A stretch of 64,000 nt of DNA. Origin: Cenococcum geophilum 1.58. Lineage: Eukaryota > Ascomycota > Dothideomycetes > Gloniales > Gloniaceae. Of the stretch, positions 2,480-30,964 are shown piece after piece. The position numbers and the translations under genes were made by a program. Under the pieces are notes generated by a model, which saw only the letters and a list, made by a program, of their open reading frames with translations, searched no databases and was not told the DNA's origin. The stretch covers positions 1 through 64,000 of the forward strand of contig KV748259.1 of assembly GCA_001692895.1 (NCBI GenBank), given 5' to 3'. Each line of letters begins with the position of its first letter. The stretch's first letter is position 1.

Positions 2480-2870
2480 TACCTACTAGTAGTCCTTAGT
2501 TATTATTTAAAGCTAGCTCGTCGGTTTGGGTACTCTGGCTGCGGTAGGAAGAGGTTATGGGAAAGGTGCGGCTGCTACGACTCGGGGGCGTCGGGCGTGA
2601 CGACGAGATAACGAATTGGAATCGGGCAAATTGGGCAACGTAGTCTTCTTCGCCAGGTTTGATTTAGTAATTCTAGCCATCAGGAATAGCTTAGGGAGCT
2701 ATAAAAGTTAAGACAATTTGGCTTAAAGTAGGTGTATATAGGCCTAAATACCCCGCGCGGGACTAATAAAAATCCAAACCGTGTACTAGACCTTCTAACG
2801 AAGGTCTTGCTAAAAGCGGCTAGCGGCTTGGCAAGGTAAGCCTTGGCAAGAAGGTCTGGGAACGAGACAA
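2480..2870. other. less mutated, GC-richer segment of unknown origin
   Basis: About 390 bases keep CA and TG dinucleotides and runs such as GGGGGCGTCGGGCGTGACG, unlike the TA-saturated flanks. It ends abruptly at about 2870, where the gypsy integrase relic begins. Near its right end are two small hairpins: AGACCTTC/GAAGGTCT around 2785-2806, and GCCAAG/CTTGGC around 2830-2848, followed by another AAGAAGGTCT. I found no ORF. It may be the end of an element inserted into the gypsy copy after RIP had run. Confidence 0.45.
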
Positions 2871-5800
2871 GTATATAGTGCTCTAGTACTCGCTTATAAA
2901 TACACTACCCCTATTAAAAACAATATTATTTAAAGGTCCTATTTATACAAAGACTCTAAATAAGAGTTCTGCGAGTTATATAGTATTAATTATCTTATAT
3001 ACTAGATAGTAGCGTACTAGCTTTATAAAACGGTCTATAAGGACAAAGATAAAGTTATACTCTACGCTATTAGGAGTTTCAGACTTTGGGAGATCCGTAA
3101 TAAAGTTAAGTAAATAATGCCGTTAGGCTTGGATGGGGGCCTAAAGAGGCTGTAGCTTACTATAGGGTTTATAGTGGCGCGATTTAGAGTGTTAGTAGGT
3201 ATTGCAATTATCTAAATATTTATAAAAGTCCTAGGTAAGGCCGTTCTAAGTATACTTTTACGCGATTACCTTAAAAGTATGGTTAAAACTATAGTAGCCG
3301 CCTATAGAATTATCATAATTCCGCTTAAGGATCTCCTATTATAGTAGTATATAATTCGGCACCTAGACCTTATTATTTTGCCTTAGAAGTCCTTAATTAT
3401 TAAGGGTATAGTCCTTATTACTAGCAGGAACTTATTTTTAAGTTAACTAATTATATATAAAGCATATAAAGGCGTCTCTTTTTTATACTCTATAAATAAA
3501 ATTAACTAGTAACTTAGGGGGGTGTTCTATAAACGCCGTTTTGGCTAAGGCAGCTACTACTACTTCTTACTATAGCACGAGACTTTACATAAAGTCGGTA
3601 CTAGTAAAGTAACGTATAATATATAGGTAACTTACTAGGTCGTTATAGGGGACCGTAGCCTAGACTAAGGGGTCTTCCCTAGGGTTAAGCGCTATTAGGC
3701 TAGTTAAGGTAGTCTTAAAGAAAATAGTAGGACGCTTTAGTCCGCTAGCGCTAAGTTCACAAGGGTCGCTTATATACTACACGTATACTACTCGCTGGTT
3801 TAGTATAATAGCACTAGGGCCGCCCATAAGGCCTATAACCCGCAACTTTTACTATAATATAGGCAGCATAGCATTAAGGATTATCCTCTTACTACTATCT
3901 TTAAAGCCTTTAGTATAATCCGGGCGCCAGGATAGTATATTAGCGGGATTTACTTTACCTAGCTTATATTTAATCTTAAAATTAAACTTAGCTAGTTTCT
4001 TAGCGTACTAGGCCTAGCAAGTAGATAAGCTCTTAATAATTATAAAGTACCTAAGATTGTTATAATTATAGAGTACGCGCGTTATATGCGCGGCGTGTTT
4101 AAGGTAATAGCGCTACATCTTAAAGCATTATACTATAGCGAGTAGTTCTTTATTATGCGTATTATATTATACTTCTAGGCTAGTAAGCTTCTAACTATAG
4201 TAGGCGATTAGGTACTAGTGAAGTTAATCCCCCTATCCTAAAGGCTATAGAAGTATACCACTATAGGTATAGTTAAAAGCGTTAGTAATTACTATTAGGG
4301 GTAGATTAGGGTTAAAGTAATAAAGTAGAGGAGCCTATATAAACGTGGTGCGTAGCTTATAGAATGCCTACTATATATTATCGGGCCAGGACTATGGTTG
4401 ATACTATTTAGTAGGCCCTTTTAACTTACGCTTTTACTTCTTCTCCCTATCTAATATTAGGTCGCGATGTGCCTATATAAGATATATATATAGGGGGTAT
4501 GCTATATCTAAGTAGTTCTAAATAAATCGCCTATAAAAGTTAGCAAAGCTAAGGAAGACCTAGATATCCCTATAGGACTTAGGCTTAGGCTATTCCTTAA
4601 TAGCTTTTATGCAGTTAGGGTCTATTATAATACCCCTAGGGGTAACAATAAAGCCTAGGAACTCAACGTTCTTAGTATAAAAAATGCATTTTAATAATTT
4701 AGCGTATAGGCCCTAAGTACGGAGCTATTATAGTACTTACTTAATATACTTAACGTGCTTATCCTCATTATTTAAGTAAATAAGAATATTATCTAAGTAA
4801 ACTATATAAATAGTATCTACTAAGGTTTTTAGAGCTTTATAAATATAGCTCTAAAACGTTATAGGGGCGTTAGTAAGACTAAAGGGCATTACTAGGTACT
4901 TAAAGTAACTATAGCGTGTCTTAAATACGGTCTTCTATTTATCTTCCTTTTTAATATAAATCTTATAGTACGCATTATAAAGATCTAGCTTTATAAATAT
5001 CTTTATATAGCTAAGCCTATTAAAGAGTTTGCTAACTAGCGGTAGGGGGTACCGGTTCTTAATTATAATCTTATTTAGGCGTTTATAGTTAATATATAGC
5101 CGTATTATACTGTCTGCTTTTAGTATAAAGAGGATAGGCGCTCTAGTAGGCGACTTACTAAGCCTAATCTAGCCCTTTTTAAAAGCACTATCTAAATACT
5201 TTTATAAGATCTGCAACTCTTTCTATAAAAGGTTATAGAGGGGCATTTATAATAGCGTCTTGCCTTCTTCTAAGTCGATTATATGGTTGTACTTAGAGTT
5301 CTATAATAGCATGCTTGCTAGCTTATTAGAAAAAACATTAATTTCCTCCTTATATATATCTAGTAGGCCAGGGGCCACGGAGGTTAAAGCGACTATTATG
5401 TAGTAGTGTGCTTCTAAAAGCTAGTAGAGAGAAGGGTGCGGCCGATATACGTTTTATAGGTATACTCGCACTAAGAGTATATATAGCTCCGCTATAGTAT
5501 ACTTAATAGTTTTAGGGTTTTAATTACCTCCCCCTTATATATAGGTAATCTGCGCTAGCACTAAAGGGTCTCTATAGGTACTTACTGCCAGTAACGGCAG
5601 GTCCTCTACTATATTTATAACCGGTATCTCTATATCCAGAGTATCTATATAGGTACTTGCTGCTAGTAATAATAGGTCCTCTATTATATTTACGACCGGC
5701 GTAGAGAAGGAGTCTTCTAGCTATAGCGAATAGACTATTTTACTAGCCTTAATATCTGCTAGGAGAGTATTAAGGGTGACTATTTAGAGGCGTCTAGGGT

Positions 5801-6430
5801 CCGAAGTACCCTAGATAAACTGTTTAGAACGGAAGCTAATTAATAAATCTACTTTTGCAAGCCAATCCTATCTAAGAACTATATTATAACTATCAAATAA
5901 GCCGCCCTAAAAGATCTACGAGCTAATAGTGCGAGGGGTACCCTAGAAGTTACTAGTAGTGACCGTTAAATTATAAGCATCCTAGATTGTTATCTAGTTA
6001 CTATTAAGGAAATATATAATAGGTTTATGTAAATATAGCATATAGCATATAGGTAGGTTAAACCTACGGATAATATCTTAATTAATAAGGTTAATTTAGC
6101 ACCTATTATTATATAAAGTATATAGGCGGACTTTGCCCTAGGGCGTATCTATTGCAATATATACTATAATGCGTTTCTTCTCTCCCTCTATATTAGGCCC
6201 TAGTTGCAGTTAAAAGAGATGCGCTACTAGGGCTTTAGGTTTTCTAAAGGTTAAGCTAACTTCTTTTTATTAGCCTGCTTCTAGTGTTCCTTATAGTGGC
6301 CACCTATAGTTCTTTAACTTATATGCGTAGCACTAGCGTCCGGGAGGTCCCCTAAGCTATCTAGCTTTTAGGTAGTCTCCCTAGGAGTTTACTTAGAAAA
6401 GCATCGCCCTTTTTAGGTTCTATTCCCTAA
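2871..6430 (-). pseudogene. gypsy A pol relic: protease, reverse transcriptase, RNase H, truncated integrase
   Basis: On the minus strand a retropepsin-like stretch lies near 6053-6112 (NLINQDIIRRFNLP, with the DSGA-type start decayed). Reverse transcriptase follows at about 5200-4500, with an RLYINYKRLN-type block and a YLDNILIYL catalytic motif at 4800-4774; the canonical second Asp of YLDD is Asn. The text after it (FLGFIVTPRGI-like) is typical of the gypsy RT/RNase H connection. The integrase core is readable at 3060-2871 (VLIDRFIKLVRYY, then NRGSVF for the usual DRGSVF) and is cut just after. Dozens of TAG/TAA codons stand at Gln/Trp positions. It is a clear relic with no function left. 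Confidence 0.85.
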
Positions 6431-7416
6431 GCCTAACTCTATAAAGCCTGTGCTGCGACCACGCTTTATACGTAATAATTTGCCACTACTACTTACGCGA
6501 TCTTCCGTAAGCTTTATAGTATTAAGCAATTACTCTACACAGCGGATTTTGTTAAAGAGGTCTTTAGCGGTTTTTACCCGTTAGGTAAAGTTCTGGCGGA
6601 AGAGCTTTACTTATAAGTAGGCTGGGAGATATAAGAACTAAAAGTCTACCTATTATTTAGGATTAATAAAAGGGGTATATAAGAAGAGGTCCTCTAAGCT
6701 ATATATATAGGCTAGGAAGACGTTAAACCTCTAGTTCTCCTTTATAACAGCCGTATAGTATATTATAGCGTTATTAAAGCGTCTTATTATAGGGTTCCTA
6801 ATCTAGTCTTAGACTATAGTCTTAAATTCGTCCTATAGTAAAGGACCCTTACCCTTAGTGCCTAACCGGCGATAAACTAGTTAGGTAATTGTCTTCTTTT
6901 TTATAAGACCTTTAATGGCCTAGCGCGTGCGTTACTTATAGTCATAGTTAGCATTATTAACCTTAAATCGGTTCTTAACTGCGGTAATCTACCGGTTAAA
7001 ATGCTGTTAAGTAGTACCGCTAATATTAGGTAGTGACTTCTTAACCAGGGTATTAAGATTTAATCGGCGTATACGTTTGCCGCGTAACTTATACTCTTTA
7101 CTAGAGAGGCAACAGGAGGGCTTTATTAAATTAATAATACTCCGTAAGTTAGCTATTTTCTTAGCTAGCTCATCTAGCTCCTTTATATTAGCGGTATTAG
7201 GTAGCACGCTAGTAACCTTACTAAGCTTCTGTTAAGCCTAGGTATATAAGTTAAACTAGTCTTTAGCGTTCGTAGATATCTAATCGTTTTAAGATTTAGA
7301 AAATGGCTTAGTATGCTTTTAGCGGTTTCGTCTATACTAGATCCTAAGGTGTTCTACGGTTGCATTGCTCGCGTATTATCATTAGGTATAGGCGTCGGTT
7401 TTCTTTTTAGAGGCAT
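6430..7416 (-). pseudogene. gypsy A gag relic
   Basis: A minus-strand ATG at 7416-7414 opens a Lys/Pro-rich N-terminus (MPLKRKPTPIPND) and the frame continues toward 6430 with in-frame TAG/TAA. The 66-codon stretch between 7207 and 7007 is the longest piece left open. The zinc-knuckle region expected near 6430-6480 is too eroded for me to name its ligands. Assignment as Gag rests on position directly upstream of the protease/RT relic and on the start codon following the presumed leader. Confidence 0.55.
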
Positions 7417-9290: not shown

Positions 9291-9425
9291 TTATATAAGG
9301 GGGCTTAGACTTATAGCCACGCTTATAGGGCTGTTTATATATAAACTTCTCTAAGTATATATAAGGGGGCTTTAAGTCGTTATAAAGTTTATAGGAGTCT
9401 TTATATAGGAACTTCTTTAATATTT
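9291..9425. repeat. 66-bp tandem duplication
   Basis: Two diverged copies in tandem, each starting TATATAAGGGGGCTT and ending near AACTTCT. The GGGGG tracts are at 9299-9303 and 9365-9369, giving a 66-bp period. Confidence 0.6.
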
Positions 9426-9498: not shown

Positions 9499-10237
9499 AG
9501 CTAGGCGTTAATAAAGGGCGCTAGATTAGATTACCCTGCTTATATAATTACCCTACTTATATAATTACTCTACTTACACAATTACCTAGCTTGCACGATT
9601 ACCCTACTTTTATAATTGCCTAGCTTGTATAATTACCTAGTTTGCATAATTACCTAGCTTGCATAATTACCTAGCTCGTATAATTATATAGTTCGCATAA
9701 TTACCTAGCTCGTATAATTACCTAGTTCGCACGATTACCTAGCTCGCATGATTATCTAGCTCGCACGATTACCTAGTTTGTATAATTACCTAGCTTGCAC
9801 GATTACCTAGTTCGCATGATTACCTAATTCGCACGATTACCCAGTTTGCACAATTACCTAGTTCGCACAATTGCCTCGCTCGCACGATTACCTAGCTCGT
9901 AGGATTGCCTAGCTTCTATAAGCGCCATACTTGTATAGTTACCTAGCTCGCGCAATTACCTAGCTCGTAGAATCGGCCGGCTCCCACGAGCATCCGGCTC
10001 CCACAATTACCCAGTTCGCATAATTGCCCGGCTTGTACGATTACCTAGCTTCTATAAGCACTATACTTATACGGCTATCTAGTTTATACGATTACCTAGC
10101 TTATAGGATTGCCTAGCTGTTATAAGTATCTAGCTTATATAATTAAAGCCAAAGTTATTAAACCTATTAACACCCTATTTATACGCTAGGCATTAATTAG
10201 AGGGCGCTAGGTTAGACTACCCTACTTATATAATTAC
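9499..10237. repeat. pair of about 55-bp direct repeats flanking the 17-bp array
   Basis: The stretch at 9499-9554 (GCTAGGCGTTAATAAAGGGC and onward to CTGCTTATATAATTACCC) returns at 10182-10237 with mainly transition differences. A partial third copy (GAGGACGCTACGCC) sits near 10350. The pair encloses the minisatellite, so array and flank may have duplicated as one unit. Confidence 0.7.
9540..10160. repeat. 17-bp minisatellite, about 36 copies
   Basis: Head-to-tail copies of a 17-bp unit near ACCTAGCTCGCACGATT, with variants in which CG becomes TG or CA and CA becomes TA. A few insertions occur (GCTTCTATAAGCGCC near 9910, CCCGGCTC near 9975). Copies in the middle (9830-10020) keep more CG and CA than the ends, so mutation load differs along the array. 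Confidence 0.85.
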
Positions 10238-17072: not shown

Positions 17073-18785
17073 ACCATCTTCCTCCTCTTTATCTTTATCC
17101 TTAAAGATTTAAAATATCTCTAAGTTATTTACTAAAGGTGTAATATCTATCTAATTAATTTGGTTAATATCTTTACTTATTATACCTAAAGCAATTTCTT
17201 CTTCCTTAACTGCTCGTCGTACTCGCACTATTGCTGCAATATTGTCTCTTGGTAAGATTATATCGTCTCTATATTCTCGCTGCTTAAAAGAGGGGTTAGT
17301 TTATATTATATTGGCGAACCTATCTTCGCAATAACCGTCCTTTTACTTAGAGTGCACTAAAGCAAATATTTATTCGTCTTATAACGTTCGCTCTATCTCT
17401 AATACTAAATATACGCGACCTATTACTTTTAATAGCCGTTTAGTTCCCTAGTTAATTTGTTTTAGGGTTTTATATTTATTTTACTACTACGCGGCTAGAT
17501 AATAAACTGTTTATTACTCTAGCGGAATTATATTATTCCTATAACGCAGAACGGGAGGCTGCTAATACTTAGCAACGGGCCTTTAAGTCTTATCTTACGG
17601 CATCTACTCGGTTAATCCGTCTTGAGAAGGTTTATAAGAAGGTTTATAAGAAGGTTTATAAGAAGGAGTAAAAGCTAGTAAAACAAGAATTATAGAAACT
17701 TAGCAATAAAAGAACGGATTCTTTTTTAATAGAGAAGGAAACAGATCCAAGTAGTTTAGCAACTGCTCTTCTTAGGTCCCCCTTAGGTAACTTATTTTTT
17801 AACGATTCTTCTTTATTAATACTGCCTAACCTAATTTCTTCTAATACTCCTATACCTTTCTTATAGCGTTCTTTAAATTTTCTAGTGGTTCCTAGGTAGT
17901 CTTATTATAGCCTATCTACTTAACCTTATACTATGTTTTATTGTTAATATCCTTATAACTAATAATCTTTAAAACTTACTATTTATCTTCTTCCTATTCT
18001 TTATACGTGTCTACTTTATAAACTAGTAGCTTAACATTCCTATATACTGGCTTTAGTATTACAATATACTATATAGGGTAGATCTTTATCCTAGCTAGTA
18101 GGTTTAACTTAAACGTAACTAATAAAATCTTTTGTATAATTTTAAAAGGTCCTAATTTGACGTAGTCTAACTTCTTGCTTAGTCGTTAACTCTTAAAATT
18201 TTTATATAGTAGCCATACTTTATCTCCCTCCTTAAGATCTAATCCCTTAGATCTTTTAGTATTATAATACTTTTTTATTCTCTTTTATACTTTCTTTACT
18301 AATTTTATAAGGTCTATATAAAGATTTATTAATATCTTTATTTTTTCTTTAGCTGTGCTACTTGTTTTCTTCGCTTACCGTAGTAATAATAATGTTCTTA
18401 GCTTATATCCATAGTTCGCCTTAAATAGTAATATGCCTATTCCTTCTTAAGGTGTTATATTATATATAAACTATATAACTAATAATAGCGATACCTAATT
18501 ATTCTGTATATAATTAATATAGTATTTTAGATACTGTTCTAGTGTCTAATTTAATCTTTCTATTTAACCGTCTGTCTGCGGATAATATACGGTAGAAGTT
18601 ACTACTTTAACTCCTTACTCTGCTAAGAATACTTCTTAGAATACTACTATAAATTTTAAATCTCTATTTAATATAATTTTACTTAATACTCTATACCTTA
18701 TAAACACTTCTTTAATATAGATTCTAGCGATATCTTCCGCTAATATCTCTTCTGTACACGCTATAAAGTATCCCCACTTTATAAG
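17073..18785 (-). pseudogene. outer chromovirus: integrase core to chromodomain and C-terminal tail
   Basis: Reading down from 18785: WGYFIACTEEILAED (integrase core), LSKIILNRDLKF, EVFLAE and YYPQTDG near 18590-18785, so the catalytic-core text missing from the inner copy is preserved here. The chromodomain is at about 17990-17830 (YLGTT, a Trp replaced by stop, LENLKN-like). A poorly conserved basic tail reaches 17080 and contains three copies of a 12-mer GGTTTATAAGAA at 17629-17664. This copy shows the pre-insertion sequence CCTAAGGGGGACC that is split by the minisatellite insert in the inner copy. Confidence 0.85.
18781..18785. repeat. small LTR element TSD, left (ATAAG)
   Basis: ATAAG precedes the left LTR; GTAAG (20423-20427) follows the right LTR. 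Four of five bases match and the fifth is an A/G transition. Confidence 0.75.
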
Positions 18786-27962: not shown

Positions 27963-28061
27963 ATAAAAAAGGATTATTAAAGAACGAGTCACCTAAGGGC
28001 ATCGGGAAAATATTCGCAGGATGAGATTCAAGTTGACTTTGGTGTTCGCGTTTCGCGTAAT

Positions 28062-28395
28062 TGACATGCAATTTAACCAACTTAACACGCAATTAACCAA
28101 CTTAACACGCAATTAACTAACTTAATACGCAATTTAACTAACTTAACACGCAGTTAACCTACTTAATATGCAATTTAACTAACTTAATACGCAGTTAACC
28201 TACTTAATATATAATTTAACTAACTTAACACGCAGTTAACTACTTAACATGCAATTTAACTACTTAACACGCAGTTAACCTACTTAACATATAATTTAAC
28301 TAACTTAATACGCAGTTAACCTACTAATATTTAAAAGTTAAATAACACGCAGTTAACCTACTTAACAACTTTAAAAGCTAACTATATATTCCTTA
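28062..28395. repeat. minisatellite 1: about 20-22-bp AACTTAACACGCAATTAACC unit
   Basis: About 15 copies, alternating AACTTAATACGCAATTTAAC and CTACTTAACACGCAGTTAAC forms, fading out near 28395. Confidence 0.88.
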
Positions 28396-28454
28396 ACATG
28401 CAATTAAGGTAAAGTTATATACTAATTACGCAAATGAATTTTTACATAGTTTTA

Positions 28455-28865
28455 TTACTTAGAGGCTCTGCATAAGGCTCTACACAAAGCTCTACACAAA
28501 GCTCTACGTACAGAGGCTCTGCACGAAGCTCTGCACGAAGCTCTGCACGAAGCTCTGCACGAAGCTCTGCACGAAGCTCTGCACGAAGCTCTGCACGAAG
28601 CTCTGCACGAAGCTCTGCACAAAGCTCTTGCACGAAGCTCTGCACGAAGTTCTGCACGAAGCTCTACACGAAGCTTTGCATAAGGGCTCTACACAAGGCT
28701 CTACACGAAGCTCTGCGTACAGAGGCTCTACCCGAAGCTCTACGTACAGAGGCTCTACGCGAAGCTCTGCGTACGGAGGCTCTGCACGAGGCTCTGCACG
28801 AAGCTCTGCACAAGGCTCTCGGCGAAGCTCTGCGTACAAAGCTCTACACGAAGCTCTGCATTGGG
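28455..28865. repeat. minisatellite 2: 12-bp GCTCTGCACGAA unit
   Basis: About 34 copies; 28510-28620 is almost perfect. A GCTCTGCGTACAGAG variant recurs from about 28700. Twelve is a multiple of three and the unit has no stop in several frames, which produces spurious open frames on both strands (AELR, EALH and QSFV peptides). The same unit forms the array at 2195-2455. Confidence 0.93.
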
Positions 28866-28949
28866 TCCCCGCTATATTTCCGATAGCCTCTCCTATATAG
28901 CCACCTTATTTTTTTATCCATCCATCCTCCTTACATCCTCCCTACCTAG

Positions 28950-29455
28950 GGAGGCACCAGAACGGCAGCCAGCAGAGGACCGTCGCCAGAACTAGCAGAC
29001 GTTACCAGAACCAGACGACCGTCGCCGTCGCCAGAACTAGAACACCGTTACCAGAACCAGACGACCGTCGCCAGAACGAGACGACCGTCGCCAGAACCAG
29101 ACCACCATCGCTAGAACTAGACGACCGTTACCAGAACCAGACGACCGTCGCCGTCGCCAGAACTAGAACACCGTTACCAGAACCAGACGACCGGTCGCCA
29201 GAACGAGACGACCGTCGCCCAGAACCAGAACGACCATCGCTAGAACTAGACGACCGTTACCAGAAACCAGACGACCGTCGCCGTCGCCAGAACTAGAACA
29301 CCGTTACCAGAACCAGACGACCGGTCGCTAGAACGAACGACCGTCCGCCAGAACTAGACGACCATCGCTAGAACTAGACGACCGTTACTAAGAACTAGAC
29401 GACCGTCGCCAAACCAGACGAACCGTCGCCAGAGCCAGACGACAACGACTAGCCA
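28950..29455. repeat. minisatellite 3: about 20-bp ACCGTCGCCAGAACCAGACG unit
   Basis: About 24 copies with a higher-order block (CCGTCGCCGTCGCCAGAACTAGAACACCGTT-like, written here in part) recurring near 29015, 29145 and 29275, 130 bp apart. Confidence 0.9.
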
Positions 29456-29499
29456 GCAGACACTATAAACGATTCCAATCGATCGATCGAATCAGGCAC

Positions 29500-29965
29500 A
29501 CAGACAGGTAGGCATAACATGAGAGATGCTAGACGGGTAGGTAGATACTGACAGGTAGGTATTAGATGCAGACTGTAATAGGATGCAGACAGGCAAGCAA
29601 TGCAGACAGGTAGGCAATGCAGATAGGTAGGCGATATAAATAGGTAGGCAATGTAAACAGGTAGGCGATGCAGATAGGTAGGCGATATAGACAGGTAGGC
29701 GATGTAGACAGGTAGGCAATGCAGATAGGTAGGCGATGTAGATAGGTAGGCAATGCAGATAGGTAGGCGATATAGATAGGTAGGCAATATAAACAGGTAG
29801 GCGATGCAGATAGGTAGGCGATGTAGACAGGTAGGCGATGTAGACAGGTAGGCAATGCAGATAGGTAGGCGATGTAGATAGGTAGGCAATGTAGACAGGT
29901 AGGCGATGTAGGTAGGTAGGTAGATAGGTAGGTAGGTAAGTTAATAGGTAGATAGGTAGAAGAGA
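29500..29965. repeat. minisatellite 4: 17-bp AGGTAGGCGATGCAGAT unit, ending in GTAG microsatellite
   Basis: About 24 copies between 29560 and 29910, differing by transitions (GATGCAGAT, GATGTAGAC, AATGCAGAC, GATATAGAT), then GTAG/GATA tetranucleotides to 29965. Three units equal 51 bp, which gives long spurious minus-strand frames with a 17-residue period. Confidence 0.92.
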
Positions 29966-30107
29966 ACCATTGCTATATTATATTAAATTATCTAAAATAA
30001 TATTTATTTTGCTAGCCTTATAAATAGCCTTAAAGTAGCTTTTATTTATTTAAAATATGCTATTAGTATAAAAGAGGTAAATATAATTGTGGTTGCCAAA
30101 TGCGCAG

Positions 30108-30175
30108 ATTACTGGCAGGTTTCGCGTAGGTTGCGCGCAGGTTGCGCGCAGACTGCGCGCAGGCTGCGTGTCAAA
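30108..30175. repeat. minisatellite 5: 12-bp GCGCGCAGGTTG unit
   Basis: Five degenerate copies (GGTTTCGCGTA, GGTTGCGCGCA, GACTGCGCGCA, GGCTGCGTGTC), CpG-rich, followed by AAAAAAACACGAC. This is the last array before the right end of the insert. Confidence 0.8.
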
Positions 30176-30285
30176 AAAACACGACATAGGCTAGTCGGTC
30201 GAGTTGCTAAATGCCCTCAACTGCGCGCCAATTGCGTCAACCACTAACCATTGAGGCCATTAGTAGGGTACTATATTTTGCCGAT

Positions 30286-30964
30286 AGGGGACCTAGAAAG
30301 GGCGACTGCCGAACTACTTAAAGTTGTTTCCCTTACTATAGGAAGAGAGTTAGTTCTTTTATTACCTAGTTCCTAAAGACCTTATTAAATAAGTTTCTAC
30401 TTTTTTAAACGGACTTTCTTATAGATATATTTTAAATGCTAAAGATAAGTATAAGCTAAACGCTAAGCTTTAAGGACATATACGGACTTTTCTAAGGTAT
30501 ACTAAACCTTAAGTAGCGTAGAGGCTAGCTTACCATTAAGCTTTACAGTAGTAGATTAAATATAAAACCCTATAATAAATTACTTAGGGAACTTAAAAAC
30601 TATTAAGAGTAATAGGACGCGTATACTTAATATTAGATATAGAATAAACGTTATATAATAAACGTATATTAGCGCGAGTACATTTGGAATAAGAGGAAGG
30701 TTAGTAACTAGAAGGACTCGCAATTATAATATAACTTAACCCCTCTTTCGTATAATAAGAGTAAGGGATTACTATTACTTTACCTAGCGATAGTATTAAG
30801 GAAACGGTATAAAGATAACGCTTAACCTAAAAAAGAGAAGAAATTGCTTTAGGTATAATAAGCAATAATATTAACTAAATTAATTAGACGGATATTATAC
30901 CTCTAGTAAACAACCTAGAGATATTAGGTATCTTTAAGGATAAAAATAGAGAGGAGGGAGATAG
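30286..30964 (+). pseudogene. inner chromovirus pol C-terminal tail and polypurine tract
   Basis: Resumes the frame split by the minisatellite insert (GDLERATAELLK, matching GDLRRAVAKLLGS in the outer copy). It runs as a Leu/Ser/Lys-rich tail with ALRTYTDFSKVYQTL-like text near 30470-30530. It ends in a purine-rich GAGAGGAGGGAGATAG (30949-30964) directly before the 3' LTR, a good polypurine tract. Confidence 0.7.

Follow-up and report, generated by a model that had tools for sequence, protein, structure and literature searches.

A family of minisatellite-filled non-autonomous transposons in Cenococcum geophilum that shares its ends with a likely ~20-kb Plavaka element

CACTA/EnSpm elements carry subterminal repeats that are possible binding sites for their transposase, and a rice study by Inukai from 2004, to go by its title, reportedly dealt with minisatellites propagated by transposable elements. 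Among the other classes relevant here, Tc1/mariner elements duplicate strictly TA, Helitrons have neither terminal inverted repeats nor a target duplication, and MITEs are short (well under 1 kb), non-coding, bear terminal inverted repeats (TIRs) and reach high copy numbers. The Tetris foldback transposon and DAIBAM, both from the Drosophila virilis group, are non-coding elements with internal tandem repeats of varying number, their inverted repeats being long (up to 1735 bp) and their units about 220 bp (PMC4079207, accessible text). For PlavakaB, the accessible text of a recent survey gives duplications of 2 or 3 bp and termini CATCA..TGATG, and for EnSpm families CAC..GTG ends with a 3 bp duplication (Kojima 2025, PMC12730594). 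The Plavaka families in that text come from Agaricomycotina, and it mentions no 20-kb element, no DUF6532 and no minisatellite-filled derivative.

The element described here, from the fungus Cenococcum geophilum, is likewise non-coding and filled with tandem repeats of varying number; in contrast to Tetris and DAIBAM, its inverted repeats are short and its arrays are built from five different short units. Its termini, CATCG..CGATG, agree with those available for PlavakaB in four of the five terminal bases, and its target duplication is 2 bp in all 20 copies compared, against 2 or 3 bp in PlavakaB. With MITEs it shares the TIRs and the high copy number, and the window copy is also non-coding, but 19 of the 20 copies are 1.4-3.1 kb long; a relative of 564 bp (L002) has similar ends and lacks the large arrays. 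The preliminary description of this locus knew of no fungal element, among those described, that is built in this way, and we found none in the open-licence literature searched, as far as its text was accessible; what is described is the Plavaka transposition system itself, so that the mechanism of transposition is known and the cargo is unusual. No paper on subterminal repeats and transposase binding was found in the same open-licence literature.

The window, that is the whole stretch of 64,000 nucleotides analysed, contains a retrotransposon interrupted by an insertion that had been described, from the sequence, as mobile-looking, with inverted-repeat ends and with borders set by an uninterrupted sister copy of the host. 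The family ends, the 2-bp duplications and the empty site all agree with this (Table 1). The borders are indeed sharp and the sister copy at ~17.8 kb fits exactly, 193 of 216 bases of the left flank being identical, except that the element is one base longer at either end than first drawn. Since the empty site in the sister reads CCTAAGGGGGACC and the interrupted copy reads CCTAAGGG, then the element, then GGGGACC, precisely the two bases GG were duplicated, which places the element at 28000-30286. The 5-bp duplication AGGGC/AGGGG that had been considered possible is ruled out by this empty site and by the 20 copies compared, and the real length is 2 bp: the C of the supposed AGGGC is base 1 of the element, and the A of the supposed AGGGG is its last base, a position occupied by G in 13/20 copies and by A in 7/20. 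The window copy accordingly has T outermost in its right terminal repeat (reverse complement), where most other copies have C. Nothing plausible is encoded, as originally judged: all six open reading frames of at least 60 aa appear to be low-complexity readings of the arrays, and an Rfam scan of the element returned no family at the gathering score.

Table 1. Coordinates of the element and related features in the window
Feature	Position	Strand	Evidence
Non-autonomous element, entire	28000..30286	+	2287 bp; ends and 2-bp duplication as in 20/20 full copies
2-bp target site duplication GG, left copy	27998..27999	.	Duplication survey and empty site in sister
2-bp target site duplication GG, right copy	30287..30288	.	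Duplication survey
Left terminal inverted repeat CATCGGGAAAATATT	28000..28014	+	406 exact ATCGGGAAAATATT matches genome-wide, control 8
Right terminal inverted repeat, reverse complement TATCGGCAAAATATA	30272..30286	-	469 matches of GGGTACTATATTTTGCCGAT with at most two mismatches, against 0 in the control
Array A, 20-bp unit ACACGCAATTAACCAACTTA, 41-bp higher-order units	28064..28367	+	Tandem Repeats Finder; also at left end of Plavaka-linked L092
Array B, 12-bp unit GCTCTGCACGAA	28465..28860	+	Tandem Repeats Finder and array census
B-C spacer, contains match to RGGTCCCCGCTATATT	28861..28972	+	RGGTCCCCGCTATATT: 897 matches genome-wide
Array C, 20-bp unit CCGTCGCCAGAACCAGACGA	28973..29443	+	Tandem Repeats Finder and array census
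Array D, 17-bp unit GATGTAGATAGGTAGGC to 29920, then TAGG run	29582..29959	+	Tandem Repeats Finder and array census
Array E, 11-bp unit GCAGGTTGCGC	30115..30168	+	Also at right ends of L017, L030, L031
Right terminal region homologous to L017, L030, L031 right ends	29975..30286	+	Sequence comparison
Uninterrupted sister copy of host retrotransposon, part adjoining empty site	17780..17995	-	

The terminal inverted repeat is real and recurs throughout the 177,193,698-base genome, so that the search for further copies with the same ends turned up hundreds. The left end ATCGGGAAAATATT had 406 exact matches, against 8 for the reversed-pattern control; a 22-base version of it, with up to three mismatches, had 550 against 3, and the right end GGGTACTATATTTTGCCGAT, with up to two mismatches, 469 against 0. 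Among the matches listed, at least 82 of 156 left ends have a right end no more than 8 kb away, at a median distance of 2391 bp, and at least 74 of these 82 pairs are spaced 1-4 kb apart. The 20 full copies compared are that of the window and 19 of 20 fetched regions, L088, in which no left end was recognisable, being left out; most of the 19 had been picked for having both ends among the matches listed, which favours intact copies. The length of the duplication proved constant, a perfect 2 bp in 20/20 (TA 13, AA 4, TT 1, AT 1 and, in the window, GG 1). TA was also the commonest dinucleotide adjoining the ends in 68 loci (42 of 80 ends, some loci overlapping and a few ends not being true ones). 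The copies measure 1370-3060 bp in 19/20 cases, and the remaining one, with a nested insert, 7144 bp. The family is mobile, and its several hundred copies carry ordered minisatellite content.

Tandem Repeats Finder recovered the five successive arrays of the preliminary description, with the unit of array E corrected from 12 to 11 bp. The minisatellite build is thus real, and the arrays, far from being peculiar to the window copy, are the ordered content of the family. Counted at three or more units, they kept the order A-B-C-D-E in 20/20 copies, and all five were present in 14/20 (A in 19, B in 19, C in 17, D in 19 and E in 17). The largest cluster per copy held 2-27 units of A, 0-44 of B, 0-43 of C, 0-22 of D and 2-5 of E. 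L084 has A, B and E, but where C and D would stand its units are different ones. A census with looser patterns, which gave the order in 11/20 copies, was discarded because it did not tell B and E apart. In L049 (~1575-2051) one copy is apparently inserted within array D of another, suggesting that insertion can also take place into the arrays. The left and right subterminal regions appear to share a weak and uneven inverted similarity, suggestive only: the mean alignment score over the 20 copies was 6.9, versus 3.1 after shuffling and 4.0 after shifting, and in four copies the observed score was reached by 10-74 of 300 shuffles.

A 2-bp duplication that is not strictly TA, combined with CA..TG ends, pointed to a CACTA-like clade, and the genome was therefore searched with the Plavaka transposase model PF18759, before the comparison with the published PlavakaB termini and duplication was made. 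The search gave 123 matches, all above the cut-off and each with at least one stop. By our own split, group 1 consists of the first 66 of the 123 rows and group 2 of 19 among the remaining 57; these 66 and 19 rows, all 76 DUF6532 matches and all 150 DDE_1 matches entered a test of position relative to the family ends. At least 7/66 group-1 matches have a left end 1957-2211 bp away, with the gene pointing towards it, and at least 13/66 have a right end at 16748-16979 bp, with at least 7 more at 19-26 kb, among the ends listed. The wrong orientation gave 0/66 for left and 0/66 for right ends among those listed, and 46/66 had no right end within 28 kb among them. The 150 DDE_1 matches, taken as a control in both orientations, had two left ends within 5 kb and five right ends within 28 kb among those listed, at scattered distances. 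The fixed offsets of Plavaka from both ends imply an element of ~20 kb. At least seven end pairs lie 15-28 kb apart, and four of them enclose a group-1 Plavaka match at the expected place (C7:3798206-3818012, 19807 bp; C10:374439-394371, 19933 bp; and two on C5 of 23024 and 26009 bp); three long pairs, on C2, C4 and C54, contain none of the 123 Plavaka matches.

Some Plavaka-linked loci also resemble the short element in sequence. L092 begins, within its first 460 bp, with the family left end followed by array A. The right ends L017, L030 and L031, all Plavaka-linked (that of L030 belongs to a copy whose left end is listed as well), share 93-94% identity over their last 1521 bp. Homology to the window element, at ~84% identity, covers the final 282-289 bp of these ends and 278-285 bp of the element; it takes in array E and is directly preceded by a further matching piece of 29 bp. 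On this comparison arrays A and E are parts of the ends, common to the short and the long element. L090 and L091, two Plavaka loci for which 1.5 kb of flank on either side was included, are 92% identical to each other, and neither has tandem arrays at the score used or a match to the short elements. The ~20-kb Plavaka element, pieced together from positions and from parts of different copies, with ~12 kb of its interior outside the parts read, is the likely autonomous partner with shared ends that the preliminary description had proposed to look for, the transposase lying at fixed offsets inside those ends. We therefore consider the window element very probably a non-autonomous cut-and-paste DNA transposon of Plavaka type, in the CACTA/EnSpm-Mirage-Chapaev-Transib clade, that has kept the ends of this ~20-kb element, an assignment by position, through PF18759 at fixed distances inside the ends of the long partner; the window element encodes no such domain. 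L086, with 7.1 kb between its ends, was rejected as an autonomous partner: its interior resembles an unrelated nested insert and has no open reading frame of 90 aa or more. This insert, of ~4.8 kb (L086 ~2557-7375), contains a repeated stretch.

Arrays B-D did not turn up in those stretches of the Plavaka-linked loci that were read, ~12 kb of the partner interior lying outside these. The 16-mer RGGTCCCCGCTATATT of the B-C spacer, matched in the window at 28863-28878, has 897 matches in the genome (control 4), which exceeds the number of ends found, and of its places in C1-C2 (77 of the 100 listed), 22 have a family end near by and 55 do not, among the ends listed. These observations favour an origin of the B-C-D module in another, more abundant repeat family, from which it would have been captured between Plavaka ends and then amplified. 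Such a history is compatible with the Plavaka assignment, and we give it an even chance, since older copies may have mutated ends, or ends outside those listed, which might account for some of the excess or for the whole of it, and since the spacer matches in the loci read, judged by eye, lie within the present element, bar one match with three mismatches in L061. In many other copies the spacer reads CATCGGGTCCCCGCTATATTCCCGATAG, which itself resembles two facing element ends.

Could the family be mobilised by a Tc1/mariner-type or other TA-specific element (ESTA or PHISTA, for example), with Plavaka a mere neighbour? The prevalence of TA, both among the duplications (13/20) and beside the ends (42/80), is what such an element would leave, but 7/20 duplications are AA, TT, AT or GG, and Plavaka lies at fixed distances from both ends in one orientation only, which DDE_1 transposases do not, so that we regard this explanation as improbable. 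Membership of Tc1/mariner itself was rejected on the same seven duplications, and that of the Helitrons on the presence of both inverted repeats and a duplication. The repeats near the ends recall CACTA/EnSpm elements, from which the family differs in its 2-bp duplications and its CATCGG ends; a strict CACTA/EnSpm assignment was rejected because these ends are neither CACTA nor CAC. Finally, tandem arrays are error-prone in assemblies, but an assembly artefact, or a one-off chance pile-up of repeats, has virtually no standing, given that the ends are dispersed in their hundreds, the duplications are exact and the array order is identical in 20/20 copies.

Five read-through pieces of the Plavaka-linked loci (two right-interior frames of L030 and three from L093) gave only sub-threshold Pfam matches, to DUF6532 (E 0.0028), MgtE_N (E 0.004) and ECT2_PH (E 0.11), the DUF6532 match being located in the right interior. 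A genome search for DUF6532 returned 76 matches, of which, among the ends listed, at least 15 lie 1319-1396 bp from a right end, with at least two more at 9318 and 26236 bp; in the wrong orientation there were none among the ends listed. Within 60 kb DUF6532 and group-1 Plavaka form 35 divergent pairs, and the distance is 15.0-15.5 kb in 18 of these; within 20 kb, 15 pairs have DUF6532 downstream of group-2 Plavaka on the same strand, 13 with a distance of 4012-4126 bp. The argument for this pairing lies in the narrow distances, the opposite-orientation control having covered distances to ends. DUF6532 looks like a regular companion of the Plavaka transposases in the Cenococcum geophilum genome, and Plavaka and DUF6532 are also listed together among the additional domains of two Ganoderma species (PMC8955403, in the part available). 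In group-2 Plavaka (e.g. C13:2385054-2389898 and C91:195355-200229) the domain was matched in two pieces, possibly separated by an intron. A search for TET/JBP cargo gave no match here, and none in the control genomes either.

The insert had also been described as far less RIP-mutated than its host, which holds with a reservation. The composite index is -0.09 in the non-array part of the element, versus 1.23 in one 5-kb flank and 1.27 in the other, but for the element as a whole it is 0.88 in the window copy (mean 0.83 over 19 copies), probably raised by units of the arrays, the TAGG run for example. In the end regions of the 20 copies it ranged from -0.32 to 0.66; Plavaka-linked loci gave 0.90, 0.92 and 1.13 (L090, L091 and L093), and the right interior of L017 and L030 gave 1.37. 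The unique parts of the short elements are thus little affected by RIP and the long partner strongly. Differences from the repeat unit in arrays B-E are mostly transitions (transitions:transversions B 104:5, C 131:24, D 129:0, E 60:2). Among the most frequent are C-to-T at CpA and G-to-A at TpG, the changes expected of RIP, but A-to-G changes and those at CpG sites are also present, and array A is rich in transversions (164:97). Spectrum and index together indicate an element lightly affected by RIP rather than free of it.

Other repeats occur in the window. A separate 12-bp array at 2196-2454 is ~70-80% identical to array B, with no element end seen near by, and a long 17-bp minisatellite at 9530-9973 has a different sequence (unit ATTACCTAGCTTGTATA), with related units to ~10300. 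A repeat containing GTCGGCAGAATATRGCAGAATTTGGCAGG with conserved flanks was seen in three places, at window 55634 (one base differs) and 61612, both on the minus strand, and in L085 near 389. The repeat starting GTCGGCAGAATATGG (window 55634 and 61612, minus strand; L085) was considered as a related element and rejected, the similarity continuing past the supposed end.

From these data we propose how the family may have arisen and spread. The short element would have kept the ends of the autonomous one, that is the short inverted repeat with array A subterminal on the left and array E on the right, while the interior, comprising the Plavaka transposase, the DUF6532 gene ~15 kb off and the stretch between them, would have been replaced by the B-C-D module, captured from another repeat family, perhaps in gap repair after excision. 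The Plavaka transposase of the 20-kb copies would bind the inverted repeat in trans, and perhaps the subterminal repeats too, which makes the subterminal arrays putative transposase binding sites. Mobilised in this way, the element would be excised and pasted at a staggered cut, preferably at TA, leaving the 2-bp duplication. After insertion, slippage or unequal exchange would make the arrays grow and shrink, giving the differences in copy length, and RIP would slowly erode the copies. More tentatively, the whole could be pictured as a two-tier system, in which giant ~20-kb Plavaka elements that end in minisatellites and carry two or more genes, among them transposase and DUF6532, are accompanied by several hundred derivatives that spread foreign minisatellite cargo. 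The arrays might then be tunable platforms for transposase binding, their length setting mobility, and DUF6532 might be a conserved Plavaka accessory protein, a thought suggested by its recurrence 4.0-4.1 kb downstream of group 2 (13/15 pairs).

A large, non-coding, minisatellite-filled repeat family is thereby tied to a definite transposition system, which provides one route by which minisatellites of differing sequence spread jointly through a genome. The family also draws attention to DUF6532, a protein that probably accompanies Plavaka transposons. With hundreds of natural copies that differ in array length, the drift of the arrays, the action of RIP and any effect of array length on mobility become measurable in this fungus.
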